A DNA stretch of 39,445 bases, taken from the NCBI GenBank assembly GCA_903824675.1, contig CAIJXV010000037.1, positions 1 through 39,445 of the forward strand. The letters run 5' to 3'. A program made the translations under genes and the position numbers. Under the pieces are notes generated by a model. The model was not told the DNA's origin, ran no database searches, and saw nothing but the letters and a program-made list of their open reading frames with translations. The number at the start of each line of letters is the position of its first letter. Position 1 is the stretch's first letter. This document shows positions 15,476 to 21,405 of this stretch, piece by piece. Source of the stretch: an uncultured bacterium. Its GTDB lineage: Bacteria > Verrucomicrobiota > Kiritimatiellia > CAIKKV01 > CAIJXV01.

Positions 15476-18400
15476 CTACCGCTTCTCAACCGTGATCCGA
15501 TAGAATATCTGGTCGATTCCCGGTAGCATATCCGTGTGCACGTTCATCGGGGGAGAGGCGGGGATATTGCTCGCGATGGACTCAAAGCCAGGCGAAACGA
15601 GGTTGGTGGCCCGATCCACCCCGTAGATCCGATTGGATGCGCTTGGCCAGGCGATCACGAAAGAGGAGTTATCCGGGCGGGGTAAATTGGTAATGGCCAG
15701 AAAGGATGCGTGATTCGTAGGGTCGGTGCCGGCAATCTGCTCCTGCCAGGCGGGCACTCCGTCCCGATCGCTATCGTTGGTTTCAGCGGCACTAAAGTCA
15801 GACCCGTCATTGGTCAGCCCATAGTAGGCCAGCCACCATTCGGGAGTTTGGTTAGCGGCCAGCACCTCGGCAAACACAGCCATAAGACCGTGAGCCTGAT
15901 TCATGGTCAGGGGAAGCGGGTTGCTCACGGAATTGAGGGTGCCGGTCCAGCTCACGAAACGGTAATAGTTGCTCGGCAACGCGGTGACAACGGCGCTCGC
16001 ATTACGATCCACCCAATCGCTATGAGGGATCACCTCCCCCATCCCGCTCTGGGAAACATCCATCCAGTATTGGGTCTTCCACTGCCACGTCAGGATCGCG
16101 GCATTGGTCAGGGTCATCACCAGGCGGTTGGTCTCGCCGCTCAAGGGTTCGTTGCCGGTCAGGGCCCAACCGGTGCACACATACTGCGTCCAACCGCGGG
16201 TGTCGGGCGAGGTGACCGAGTTGGTGATAACGGTCTTGTAGAGATTCAGGGACGCACCCGATGGCGGAGTCGGCACTCCCCAGTCCGAGTTCACCTGTAG
16301 GCCGCAGGGATCATGGCCCACCAGGGTCAGAACAGCCGATGAGCGGGTTTCAGCCAGCCCCCCTGTCGGAGAATTCCATACGGTCAAGAGCACCGTTTTA
16401 TTCCCGGCCAGGCGCTCGTTGAGGAGTGGAACCACAAAAGAGTTGGTTGTGGAACCGCCCGCCAGCACGACCGTCCCGCTAATGGCCGTGTAATCGACTC
16501 CGTCCACGGCGGTGCCGTTGCGGGCAGTATAATGGGCGATTATATCGCTTTGCCCGCCGACCGTCCGCAGAATCGTCACCCGGGCCGGGTTGGCGTCCGC
16601 CGGAACCTGGTATTGGTCCGCCGTGAATCGCACGGGCGGCCCATTGGTGTTCAGCGGCAGGGTCAGGATGTCGGTCCAGTCCAACGGGAGTTGGACGCGG
16701 ATCCGGTCGCTCAAAAAGGTAAACGGCAGGTTGGTTCCCAGTTCGGAACTGTAGACGGAGGCAATATTGGCGTTCGTCGGATTCGGGGAACGGATGTCCA
16801 GCACGAGGTTGGAGATGGCGTGATAGGTGTAATTCGCCAGCACCAGCGCATTGCCGTTGGTGCCGGCCAGCAAGTTGGCTTCCACCACCGGGGCGCTGGA
16901 TTTAACCACCGGATCGATCCCGGCCTCCTGCAACGGTCGGGCGATAATCTGCCTCGGATTGGACGGCCACACCTCCGCCAGGGTCGTCGCCTGAAAATTC
17001 GCCTGCCGCCCATACGCCAGCATGGGCATGAAGCCGACGGCCACGACCCGACCCGAGTCACAGTTCACCACGACACCCGCAGGGGTTCCATCGGCAAACG
17101 TGGCAAAGGGGGCCGGCACGTCAGACCGCAGGGTGAGACGGGCGCCAATCGCCGGCAACGAAAAGGATCCGGTCCCCAGATTCAGAGTGACCGTCGTCAG
17201 CGGGGAAAGGCTGGACAAGTCGCGACGTTCGATAAACACACCGGACTGCACCACGATATTCAATGCCGCATTCGCCGGCCACAGATTGGCCGCAAAAGGC
17301 GGCACGTAGGGTTCGTAGAACTCATCGCGAGTCGCCGCTCCGGCGGAGAGATAAAGTACCCCACCCGCACGCACCCAGGCGTCGATGGCTGCCGACGCCG
17401 CGCGGCTGACACACCAGTCATGCACGTACAGCACGTCATATCCGCTCAAGCGCCCGGAGACCACGGCGTCCTCGGAAAGATAGTCCGGCTGAACGCTCAA
17501 ATGGCGGAGCGCATGCCAGGACAGGCGCTTCTCGGAAAAAGCGGACGGGGAATCCACATTCCACAGATCGTGGCTGACCGAATAGAGGATCGCCACCCGG
17601 TCGCTAACGGTTTTGGCCGGATACAGAATGTTTTCGGTGGCCACCAGCGCCCGGGAGGTTTTGGCGATGCCGAAATACATGCTCTTCAAATCTGACCAGT
17701 AATTCTCCGTGCCGATATAAGTGGGACTAAAGGTCCAATAATAGAGGGTCTTCGAACCTTGTCCGATATTCGAGTAGGCCTTCAGGCGAAGATACTTATC
17801 GTCGCTCGGGGTGATGAGCCCCATGAGATTGCCCGGGGTGCCGAGCATCGCCGAGCGCATGATCGCGCTCATCCACCCGAAGGTCTGCCCCCCGCTGGCG
17901 GTATAATAATAACCATACATGTGGTTAAGGCCCAGCCAGTCTTCGGCGGCCAATGTTGTGACCGATTGCTGGGATCCCAACTCGAACTGATCGAGGTTAC
18001 GGTTCGCCATTCCCAGCCAGGGCGCCCCCCAAAAATACAGAAAGGAGTGATCGCTCACAAGCGTCTCCGTCTCCATCCCCGGCAGAGACCCCTGGATCAG
18101 ATCGGTATTGTGGCGAAATTGGCGGGCCGACCACCACTGTGCGAATTTGCTCGACCAGTAGTGAAGCCGGCGCGTCGGCAGATCCGCCGTGCGCGAGAGA
18201 TAGCCGGTCGCCAATACATTGGTCTCCAGGACCGCCTGGTCCACGGGAGTCGGCAGATCGCTATCGCTCACGCCTTTTGCCACGAGATAATCCCGGAACC
18301 AGCCATCCCGCTTGGCGGCGGCGATCGAGCTGAAGCTGAGGGTCTTGACTTCATCGGAGAGGGTGTAAATCGGCATGTTCTGATACTGCCACTGTCCGAT

Positions 18401-19204
18401 TTCTGTCGCCAGAGCCGATTTCAATGTCGAGTTAGTGAAAGTGGTCCACTGCGCCGTCGCAATGTCCGGATCGGTGAAAATGTTCTGCATAGTATTGAAG
18501 GTGACCATGCCATTATCGCGAATGAAAGAGGTCGTCGTTCCGCCGGTCGCCTTGATCCCGAGTTGCCGAAGCGTTTGCAATGCGGAATTGGCCAGGTAGG
18601 GTTCATACAGGCCGTACAAGGTGGAGATCAGCCGAAAGCGGGACGGAATCGCAGCGTTGGTGAAGGTGGCCTCTTGTGCCCACGCCAACTGGCGATCCGC
18701 CATCTGCCGACCGGTCTCGAATTCACTCGCATACGTGGCCAGCGGGTTCGGAACGAGGTAATAGATCTGGTTCGTTACGCTGGTTTCGGTGAAATCGATT
18801 TTCACAGCCGTATCGGTTGCGGCGTTTGCCAGTTGGACTCGGATCAGTAAGGGCCCGAGCCCCTTGCCGGTGGATGAATCCGTCACGGTTAACCGCATGG
18901 ACGGCCACTCGGCAAGCCCCCCGGAGAGATTTTGCCGACCCGGCCAGGTCCAACCGCTGAGATCCTTCCAATCGGTCCACGTGCCGGCGGTGACAGTCCA
19001 ATTGGTCGAGGGCAAGTACCAGTTACCGCTGCTGGCCCCGTTGTGAACATGCCCATAGGTGGTGATTTTATAGGAGCCGCTGGCGGGAGTCAGGATATTG
19101 CAACGAATGAAGATGGCGGCGGAATAGGCCGAAAGGGATGAGCAAGCGATGATCGCACACATCGTTATGAACAGCTTCAGGAACTGAGTTTTTAGGTGTT
19201 TCAT
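15476..19204 (-). CDS. Giant secreted mosaic protein with GH42-like, Calx-beta and repeat domains
   Basis: The 1242-residue product starts with a signal peptide (LFITMCAIIACSSLSAYSAA). Residues of roughly 130-520 resemble a glycoside-hydrolase-like barrel without catalytic residues I can name. Near 545-720 is a glutamine-amidotransferase-like fold as in GH42 trimerisation domains (VAILYSVSHDLW, then DVLYVHDW and AWVRAGGVLYLSAGAA). A Calx-beta domain follows near 865-960 (TARNGTAVDGVDYTAISGTV), then an InlB-B-like repeat (YYRFVSWTGTLNSVSNPL...MAVFAE), a DSDRDGVPAWQE type 3 segment, and a beta-rich end. It is probably an exported polysaccharide-active or adhesive protein. No sorting tag is visible. 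It stands alone between two repeat arrays, and its start ATG at 19204 has only a weak Shine-Dalgarno sequence. Confidence 0.8.
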   Translation of the reverse strand: MKHLKTQFLKLFITMCAIIACSSLSAYSAAIFIRCNILTPASGSYKITTYGHVHNGASSGNWYLPSTNWTVTAGTWTDWKDLSGWTWPGRQNLSGGLAEWPSMRLTVTDSSTGKGLGPLLIRVQLANAATDTAVKIDFTETSVTNQIYYLVPNPLATYASEFETGRQMADRQLAWAQEATFTNAAIPSRFRLISTLYGLYEPYLANSALQTLRQLGIKATGGTTTSFIRDNGMVTFNTMQNIFTDPDIATAQWTTFTNSTLKSALATEIGQWQYQNMPIYTLSDEVKTLSFSSIAAAKRDGWFRDYLVAKGVSDSDLPTPVDQAVLETNVLATGYLSRTADLPTRRLHYWSSKFAQWWSARQFRHNTDLIQGSLPGMETETLVSDHSFLYFWGAPWLGMANRNLDQFELGSQQSVTTLAAEDWLGLNHMYGYYYTASGGQTFGWMSAIMRSAMLGTPGNLMGLITPSDDKYLRLKAYSNIGQGSKTLYYWTFSPTYIGTENYWSDLKSMYFGIAKTSRALVATENILYPAKTVSDRVAILYSVSHDLWNVDSPSAFSEKRLSWHALRHLSVQPDYLSEDAVVSGRLSGYDVLYVHDWCVSRAASAAIDAWVRAGGVLYLSAGAATRDEFYEPYVPPFAANLWPANAALNIVVQSGVFIERRDLSSLSPLTTVTLNLGTGSFSLPAIGARLTLRSDVPAPFATFADGTPAGVVVNCDSGRVVAVGFMPMLAYGRQANFQATTLAEVWPSNPRQIIARPLQEAGIDPVVKSSAPVVEANLLAGTNGNALVLANYTYHAISNLVLDIRSPNPTNANIASVYSSELGTNLPFTFLSDRIRVQLPLDWTDILTLPLNTNGPPVRFTADQYQVPADANPARVTILRTVGGQSDIIAHYTARNGTAVDGVDYTAISGTVVLAGGSTTNSFVVPLLNERLAGNKTVLLTVWNSPTGGLAETRSSAVLTLVGHDPCGLQVNSDWGVPTPPSGASLNLYKTVITNSVTSPDTRGWTQYVCTGWALTGNEPLSGETNRLVMTLTNAAILTWQWKTQYWMDVSQSGMGEVIPHSDWVDRNASAVVTALPSNYYRFVSWTGTLNSVSNPLPLTMNQAHGLMAVFAEVLAANQTPEWWLAYYGLTNDGSDFSAAETNDSDRDGVPAWQEQIAGTDPTNHASFLAITNLPRPDNSSFVIAWPSASNRIYGVDRATNLVSPGFESIASNIPASPPMNVHTDMLPGIDQIFYRITVEKR

Positions 19205-19415
19205 CGTGCTGCTTAATCGCTGTTTTCAGCTCAAGAGCGTACCCGAACAGGGCGCTAAACACAAGCACACGGATTCATTCGGGCGTCTCCTGCCTTAACC
19301 GCGTTCTATGAACGCATCCTTGGCTTTTCTTTCCCGCGGCCACCCTTCGACACGGCCCTTCGCTCAGGACAGGCTGGCCGCAGCTACAACAGATTCCTTC
19401 TCTTCATCATCTGGT

Positions 19416-19672
19416 GTTGTGGGGGCGGACGCCGGCCGCCCATCTCCCGGTATACCAGGTTCAATTATCCCCTAACGGCGGGGACCGCCGAGTCCATACA
19501 AGCAGGCGAAGCCCGTCGCTTCGGTAAATCGCCGCATAGATTACGGGCTAACAACCTGGTCCCTAATTCCGGAAAAGAACGGCGCTCTCACGCGCCTACT
19601 ACCAACAACGCTCGCCCCCGTTCGTAGTAGCGCCGTATGAGGCGCGTTTTTCCGTTGGGCTGTCATCCAAAT
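19416..19672. repeat. 257-base structured repeat, copy A
   Basis: This copy is near-identical to 19739-19995 (exact 323-base offset, a handful of substitutions). The left half closes with CCAGGTT/AACCTGG at 19455-19461 and 19553-19559 and an inner TTAGCCC/GGGCTAA stem, weakened here by a T at one position, and holds hairpins CGGCGG-GGA-CCGCCG and CGAAGC-CCGTC-GCTTCG. The right half, 19578-19648, folds as a cloverleaf: outer AACG/CGTT, arm GGCGC/GCGCC (19581-19596), central CTACTAC/GTAGTAG stem, arm GCGCC/GGCGC (19630-19645). No protein is supported in 19205-20106; 19336-19397 resembles another degraded palindromic element. Confidence 0.88.
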
Positions 19673-19738
19673 AAATAACTATTTTGGAGTCGGCATGCCG
19701 ATTCCCCGAACTGTCTGATTCAATCGTTTTTCTAATCT

Positions 19739-19995
19739 GTTGTGGGGGTGGACGCCGGCCGCCCATCTCCCGGTATGCCAGGTTCAATTAGCCCCTAACG
19801 GCGGGGACCGCCGAGTCCATACAAGCAGGCGAAGCCCGTCGCTTCGGCAAAACGCCGCACAGATTACGGGCTAACAACCTGGTCCCTAATTCCGCAAAAG
19901 AACGGCGCTCTCACGCGCCTACTACCAACAACGCTCGCCCCCGTTCGTAGTAGCGCCGTATGAGGCGCGTTTTTCCGTTGGGCTGTCATCCAAAT
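19739..19995. repeat. 257-base structured repeat, copy B
   Basis: Second copy of the element, with the same cloverleaf half at 19901-19971 and an intact TTAGCCC/GGGCTAA stem. The 66 bases between the copies are unique. It ends 20 bases before the -35 box of the promoter for the gene at 20107, so it is the immediate upstream neighbour of that promoter. Confidence 0.88.
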
Positions 19996-20015
19996 CAATT
20001 TCAAAGACATCCATC

Positions 20016-20106: not shown

Positions 20107-21405
20107 ATGCCGCATATCAATGCATTGGCTGAAGCGCTCAACCGCGAACTATCCGCCGCTCCCGCCCTTCTCGATCTATTCTCCCGGCGCGGGAAGGCCA
20201 TCTACTTCCCCTCCAAGGGAATTCTGGGGCAAAGCGCAGAAGCCAAAGGCGCCCGCATCAATGCCACCATTGGCACCGCCTTCGAGGAGGATGGATCCCC
20301 TCTCGCGCTCGAATGCCTGGAAGAAACCCTCAATCTGCCCTCTCAATCCTTCCTCTATGCCCCCAGCTTCGGCATGCCGAAATTACGCGACGAATGGGCG
20401 AAACGGATGACGGTCAAAAATCCCGGACTCTGTGGAAAACCGTTTAGCAAGCCCGTCGTCACCGCCGCCCTGACGCATGGTCTCTCCGTCGCGGGATATC
20501 TCTTCCTCGATGAGGGAGATGAAGTCATCCTGGCCGATCTCTTCTGGGATAACTACGAACTGGTCCTCGCCGAAGCCTATGGCGCCAAACTCAAATTTCA
20601 CAATACGTTTCTCCGCGGGGGGTACGATGTCGAGGCCTTGCGCGCCACGCTCGCGACCGGTCCCGTCGGTAAAAAAGTGGTTCTGCTCAATTTCCCCAAC
20701 AATCCCACCGGGTATACGGTAACCGAACGCGAAGCCGAGGCGATCTGTCGCGTCCTGGCGGAATCAGCCCAGGCGGGCAACCGGCTCGTGGTCATCATCG
20801 ATGACGCCTATTTTGGGCTGGTCTACGAAGCCGGCATCATTCGCGAATCCCTTTTCAGCCGCCTGGCCGACCTCCATCCCAACCTGCTTGCGGTCAAATT
20901 GGATGGACCGACTAAAGAAGATTATGTCTGGGGATTCCGGGTTGGCTTCATCACCTTCGCTTGCCAAGGGGTGACGCCCGCCCAGCTTACGGCCCTTGAG
21001 AACAAGGCTGCCGGTGCCGTACGGGGCTCGATTTCCAATGCGCCCAGTATTTCCCAGGAAATCCTGTTGAAGGGATATACCCACCCCGAGTACTCGAATC
21101 AAAAGATCCGAAAATTCGACATCCTCCAAAAACGGTATCTGAAAATTCGAGACCTCCTCGCCACGCATCCCGAGTATGCCCAGTCATTCACCGCCCTGCC
21201 GTTCAACTCCGGATATTTCATGTGCGTCAAACCCGTGGGCGTTGAGGCCGAAGCCGTGCGCCGTGAATTGCTGGCCCATCACGGGACCGGCGTCATCGTC
21301 CTTTCCGGCTTGATCCGGCTCGCTTTTTCGTCGGTCCCCCTTGACGCCCTCGAAACGCTATTTGCCAATGTCCACACGGCGATCCAATCTTTGAAGAAAA
21401 CTTGA
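20107..21405 (+). CDS. Fold-type I PLP aminotransferase, substrate unknown
   Basis: The 432 residues have the class I/II aminotransferase layout: FLYAPSFGMPKLRDEWA at 82-98, NNPTG at 198-202, the cofactor Asp and Tyr in IDDAYFGL at 231-238, a Schiff-base Lys at 270 in LDGPTKEDYVWGFRVGF, with the substrate-side Arg at 278, and a C-terminal region LIRLAFSSV that supplies the carboxylate-binding Arg. AAAGGAG lies 8 bases before the ATG. The stop overlaps the TTG start of dtd, so the two are translationally coupled. The substrate cannot be told from sequence; the DDAYFGL and GFRVGF details set it apart from typical aspartate or aromatic enzymes. A role in amino-acid salvage or in D-amino-acid handling with dtd is only a guess. 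Confidence 0.88.
   Translation: MPHINALAEALNRELSAAPALLDLFSRRGKAIYFPSKGILGQSAEAKGARINATIGTAFEEDGSPLALECLEETLNLPSQSFLYAPSFGMPKLRDEWAKRMTVKNPGLCGKPFSKPVVTAALTHGLSVAGYLFLDEGDEVILADLFWDNYELVLAEAYGAKLKFHNTFLRGGYDVEALRATLATGPVGKKVVLLNFPNNPTGYTVTEREAEAICRVLAESAQAGNRLVVIIDDAYFGLVYEAGIIRESLFSRLADLHPNLLAVKLDGPTKEDYVWGFRVGFITFACQGVTPAQLTALENKAAGAVRGSISNAPSISQEILLKGYTHPEYSNQKIRKFDILQKRYLKIRDLLATHPEYAQSFTALPFNSGYFMCVKPVGVEAEAVRRELLAHHGTGVIVLSGLIRLAFSSVPLDALETLFANVHTAIQSLKKT

Follow-up and report, generated by a model that had tools for sequence, protein, structure and literature searches.

The systems closest to the repeats described here are the REPs that carry a GTAG tag. In the searchable text of Di Nocera et al (2013; PMC3733652), GTAG REPs are described as inward-facing TT dimers with a 2-nt gap and a 3-nt tail (GTAG-1-like) and 5-bp stems, as heterodimers with differing stems and as clusters, and they are reported from the PVC superphylum including Verrucomicrobia and Planctomycetes. 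According to published work (PMC8266576), the transposase RAYT/TnpA-REP binds REP hairpins as single strands, makes use of their GTAG tag and cuts the DNA close to the hairpin.

The DNA analysed here, a stretch of 39,445 nucleotides from an uncultured bacterium of the class Kiritimatiellia (the window), contains a direct repeat at 19415-19676 and 19738-19999. The two copies of this 262-bp unit, which show eight differences (97% identity), are arranged head-to-tail at a spacing of 323 bp start-to-start, and both sit in the 902-bp gap between divergent genes for a Calx-beta domain protein and an aminotransferase. An earlier note on this DNA had reported near-identical copies 323 bases apart, which is confirmed, and had given the repeat a length of 257 bases, which must be corrected to 262; the stems that it quoted, including the GGCGC..GCGCC and GCGCC..GGCGC hairpins, are all present and correctly placed.

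15476..19204, minus strand: Calx-beta domain protein, neighbouring gene, transcribed away from the repeats
19415..19676, plus strand: 262-bp repeat unit, copy 1 (repeat comparison)
19415..19449, plus strand: short GC-rich palindrome TGTTGTGGGGGCGGACGCCGGCCGCCC, copy 1, also on contigs C51, C61, C91 and C108
19455..19559, plus strand: 105-bp CCAGGTT/AACCTGG hairpin block, copy 1 (repeat search and folding)
19738..19999, plus strand: 262-bp repeat unit, copy 2, 97% identical (repeat comparison)
19738..19772, plus strand: GC-rich palindrome TGTTGTGGGGGCGGACGCCGGCCGCCC, copy 2 (repeat comparison)
19778..19882, plus strand: 105-bp CCAGGTT/AACCTGG hairpin block, copy 2 (repeat search)
20107..21405, plus strand: class I/II aminotransferase, neighbouring gene, transcribed away from the repeats

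The 3′ half of each unit, which folds as a cloverleaf, is very probably a REPIN, that is, a non-autonomous inverted doublet of GTAG REPs, with its spread best explained by a RAYT/TnpA-REP and with the 262-bp unit as a local mosaic duplication. The doublets and their component REPs are located as follows.

19575..19650, plus strand: REPIN copy 1, inward-facing GTAG REP doublet (sequence-only model)
19578..19602, minus strand: REP A of copy 1, GTAGTA-GGCGC-GTGAGA-GCGCC-GTT when read on this strand
19624..19650, plus strand: REP B of copy 1, GTAGTA-GCGCC-GTATGA-GGCGC-GTT
19898..19973, plus strand: REPIN copy 2 (sequence-only model)
19901..19925, minus strand: REP A of copy 2
19947..19973, plus strand: REP B of copy 2

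Read on its own strand, each REP consists of GTTnGTAGTA, a 5-bp stem, a 6-nt GnnnGA loop, the closing stem and GTT. A hairpin with an unpaired GTAG at its foot, as expected of REPs of 20-40 bp, is thus present in both halves as GTAGTA with GCGCC/GGCGC. The two REPs are inverted with the GTAG tags inward (tail-to-tail), CTACTAC lying at 19596 and 19919 and GTAGTAG at 19624 and 19947, and their stems are mirrored, with GGCGC/GCGCC in one REP and GCGCC/GGCGC in the other. Because the inverted tags face inward, the three-arm fold of the earlier note resolves into two REP hairpins together with pairing between the tags (TACTAC/GTAGTA). Across the copies the GTAGTA tag, the hairpin and the GTT tail are conserved, with a variable spacer, and the hairpin arms are paired in 97-99% of cells for 32 distinct copies from the same genome. 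The conserved features of the REPIN lie where RAYT substrates need them.

To judge from the searchable text of PMC3733652, the REPs of the window resemble the GTAG-1/2 REPs in their short hairpin, the unpaired GTAG at its foot, the 2-nt gap and the 3-nt tail, and the family is like the GTAG REPs in being extragenic and in occurring as singlets, dimers and clusters, whereas the doublet of the window differs from what that text describes in being a fixed heterodimer of GCGCC/GGCGC and GGCGC/GCGCC hairpins. As in the REPINs of Pseudomonas fluorescens (Bertels and Rainey, 2011; PMC3116915), the inverted REP pair is the dispersed unit and is linked to RAYTs in relatives, but the family is small, with approximately 40 doublets, and no cognate RAYT was found in the assembly. 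The tags of the window also face inward, in contrast to the P. fluorescens dimers, which are given as HH with the tags outside in the searchable text of PMC3733652. The REPs share with the E. coli REP/BIME sequences recognised by TnpA-REP (PDB 4er8; PMC8266576) a GTAG tag joined to a hairpin and a reading on one strand; the stems of the E. coli REPs are longer and bulged, whereas those here are perfect and 5 bp long. The pattern GTTnGTAGTA-GCGCC-GnnnGA-GGCGC-GTT had no literal match in the relevant searchable literature text, a scope that does not extend to the consensus figure of PMC3733652. The family is new in sequence and its kind was already described in 2011-2013, so that the statement that this was not a recognised element is right about the exact sequence and wrong about the type.

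The distribution of the repeat was followed in its own assembly (4.24 Mb in 124 contigs, 96% complete). A DNA search with the 262-bp unit found only two full-length copies, both at this locus, and many further matches to its 3′ part (about 160-240 of the query). A sequence-only model was then built from 24 copies, with no base pairs included so that structure could not bias the search. This gave 65 matches at E<1e-3, of which 62 remain as places once three reverse-strand shadows are removed; approximately 39 are complete doublets and the remainder halves. Copies are present in both orientations. The halves include singlets of the B type that stand alone on C52 and C116, and head-to-tail tandem arrays occur on C67, C5, C18 and C72, the contigs C5 and C18 ending inside such arrays. 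Placement is mostly extragenic: 19 of the 24 copies checked have no overlap with a predicted ORF of at least 100 aa, the other five overlap mostly at the ORF end, and several copies start within 50 bp of the end of an ORF. In an exact-pattern scan of 85k genomes the single match, in Bryobacterales, is about what chance would give for 20 fixed bases.

Some copies carry additional sequence. In L009 and L024 (L073) another hairpin, CCCTTCGTAnCCTTGGCGnAGnAGGG, interrupts the REP A loop and resembles a REP-in-REP insertion. The sequence GGCTGTCATCC is found 3′ of the REPIN at approximately 19655-19668 in the window and in L003, L005, L014, L018, L020 and L029, and in some copies it runs on into CGAGCGnAGTCGAGG, another dispersed repeat of the genome.

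The remainder of the 262-bp unit behaves differently from the REPIN. Its opening 35 bp, TGTTGTGGGGGCGGACGCCGGCCGCCC, is a second small palindrome dispersed in the genome. The 105-bp block that follows, with CCAGGTT at 19455 and 19778 and AACCTGG at 19553 and 19876, has no further copy in the genome beyond the two in tandem, and when 288 genomes of the class were searched, the only match was one of 24 bp. The presence of two near-identical copies with all parts in the same order could indicate that the entire 257/262-bp unit is one compound mobile element, as could the occurrence of the GC-rich palindrome approximately 60 bp ahead of a REPIN on C61. This is extremely improbable, however, given that the full unit exists at one locus only, head-to-tail, with no unlinked full-length copies in the genome, and that the 105-bp block is neither repeated elsewhere in it nor matched in the rest of the class beyond those 24 bp. 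The CCAGGTT/AACCTGG half is confined to the two tandem copies and follows the second dispersed palindrome. The 262-bp unit is therefore no compound transposon but a mosaic, duplicated locally in tandem, in which that palindrome is joined to a hairpin block unique to this locus and to a single REPIN. The suggestion in the earlier note of a REPIN-like element accordingly applies to the 3′ cloverleaf half, with its dispersed inverted GTAG REPs and relatives that flank RAYT genes, and not to the whole repeat. Likewise, the recent spread that it read from the high identity applies to the local duplication alone; beyond this locus just the 3′ half is dispersed.

The same model picked up families of this layout elsewhere in the class, above all in G158, with at least 16 copies, and in G027, with 10 matches. 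In G106 a gene matching the Pfam Y1 transposase is embedded in arrays of doublets of this layout. The protein from G106 was used as a query and revealed a clear subgroup, with at least 39% identity, in many genomes of the class. These RAYT proteins match, and are homologous to, E. coli TnpA-REP, the structure of which is solved (PDB 4er8), and score 74-79 bits against the NCBIfam model for the REP-associated tyrosine transposase (NF047646), for which the cut-off is 80. Around 30 of the RAYT genes there are 108 sites with GTAGT and a hairpin, as against 2.8 in shuffles; the REPs lie near 17 of the 30 loci and cluster on both sides of the genes. In a test independent of the hairpin, 105 GTTnGTAGT sites were counted around the 30 genes where approximately three are expected, and 83 of the 105 are followed by a hairpin of at least 5 bp (1.6 expected). 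Seventeen different self-complementary stems occur at the RAYT-linked sites, among them CCGCC/GGCGG, CAGCC/GGCTG, CCGGC/GCCGG and GCGCC/GGCGC, and these differing stems after GTTnGTAGT constitute cross-genome covariation at one position. Complete REPINs are found directly upstream of a RAYT gene in G158 (C183; GCCC..GGGC-ACACTAC-AAACGG...CCGTTCGTAGTG-GCGCC-GTGA-GGCGC-TT) and at the 3′ end of a RAYT gene in G027. The G158 REP, GTTCGTAGTG-GCGCC-GTGA-GGCGC, differs from REP B of the window mainly in its shorter loop. GTTnGTAGT with a hairpin around this RAYT subgroup provides a sequence-level definition of REP/RAYT pairs across the whole class, and the 17 linked stems would make the specificity of transposase for hairpin testable.

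The family of the window thus combines the observed architecture, copy number, extragenic placement in arrays and singlets, RAYT linkage of relatives with the same architecture and stems that covary across genomes. As these include the recognisable requirements of a RAYT substrate, the spread of the family is best attributed to an enzyme of this kind, and what had appeared to be an unknown element in the window is now explained. A RAYT/TnpA-REP, an HUH tyrosine single-strand transposase, would recognise the REP in its folded form by the GTAG tag and the hairpin, and would then cut and rejoin the REP DNA; it is in this way that the REPIN would have been mobilised. A small, dispersed, palindromic sequence might also be a MITE of the classical type, which has terminal inverted repeats and depends on a DDE transposase for its movement. 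In G158 an inverted repeat of 19 bp (CAGCAATTCTAAATTTGGC and variants) does enclose the REPIN in almost every one of the 16 copies (L157-L172). This reading is nevertheless highly improbable: the flanks in the genome of the window show inverted repeats only to the extent that mismatched copies do (mean score 14.2 versus 13.7), halves exist on their own, and the enzyme linked to the relatives is an HUH tyrosine transposase and not a DDE enzyme.

The arms of the 19-bp repeat in G158 tend to co-vary. It is conceivable, if rather unlikely, that larger palindromes carry the REPINs of the class, on the pattern seen in G158, and that the 262-bp mosaic is a stalled local version of this arrangement. 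Nested palindromes would then be amplified in trans by one RAYT system, as fixed heterodimers whose mirrored stems prevent the formation of one long hairpin and so keep the REPs folded separately.

The folding of the repeat was also considered for the possibility that the cloverleaf is a transcript, belonging to a family of structured non-coding RNAs or RNA regulatory elements. The two halves were folded separately with RNA parameters, and DNA parameters were also run. With the RNA parameters the REPIN part is more stable than shuffles on both strands (z of −3.3 on the plus and −4.2 on the minus strand), as is the CCAGGTT part (z of −3.4 and −2.6); the whole 262 bp folded in one piece is unremarkable against shuffles (z of −1.2 and −1.8). 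Such stability on both strands is compatible with an RNA, and the GnnnGA loops, together with GTGA, GTAA and GCAA in the relatives, are GNRA-like. Against this, it is the minus strand that gives the better fold, the element is found in either orientation and also as isolated halves, RAYT genes have clusters of the relatives on either side, and the GTAG tag and the tail are conserved outside the hairpin stems. No match to Rfam reached the gathering score, the best below it being CRISPR-DR28 (E of 0.32, central block), which was taken as chance, and no tRNA or tmRNA was found. A structured RNA is therefore very unlikely, and the strand-asymmetric tag and the RAYT linkage explain the hairpins as single-strand DNA substrates of a transposase.

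Covariance of the stems, which the earlier note had proposed as a check, is uninformative within the genome: in 32 copies whose columns hardly vary, one pair has changed on both sides, approximately the shuffle level on most measures, and as the stem columns are near-invariant this neither supports nor refutes the fold. It is across the RAYT loci of the class that the stems vary with pairing maintained. The complementary loops of the two hairpins (TCnnnC/GnnnGA) are 85% paired and show the top covariation among slides, but as only two of six pairs have changed on both sides, no pairing between the loops is claimed. An integron attC site was considered for the CTAAC motifs and was dropped, as matching R′′/R′ boxes were absent by eye.

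The assembly, which is 96% complete, yielded no RAYT of the subgroup that is flanked by REPs; a cognate RAYT is usual, not required, for a REPIN. It was either lost or lies in an assembly gap, and the copies may now be orphans. The only RAYT in the genome is a distant one on C117 (110-757, with 218-652 within), the protein of which scores 82 bits against the NF047646 cut-off of 80. No GTAG REPs of the REPIN type were found near the Y1 transposases on C1 and C27. The motifs GGGACAGGTTAATAG and TAACCTGTCCC occur near two Y1 transposases of 330-345 aa and after some REP singlets (L031, L032, L064 and L067). On either side of the RAYT on C117 (L147, C117:1-1100) the palindromes GTGCGGGACTACAGTCCCGC, GCGCAGTGTACTGCGC and GCGGCAGTGAACAGCCGC alternate, and with them this RAYT apparently forms a second REP system.
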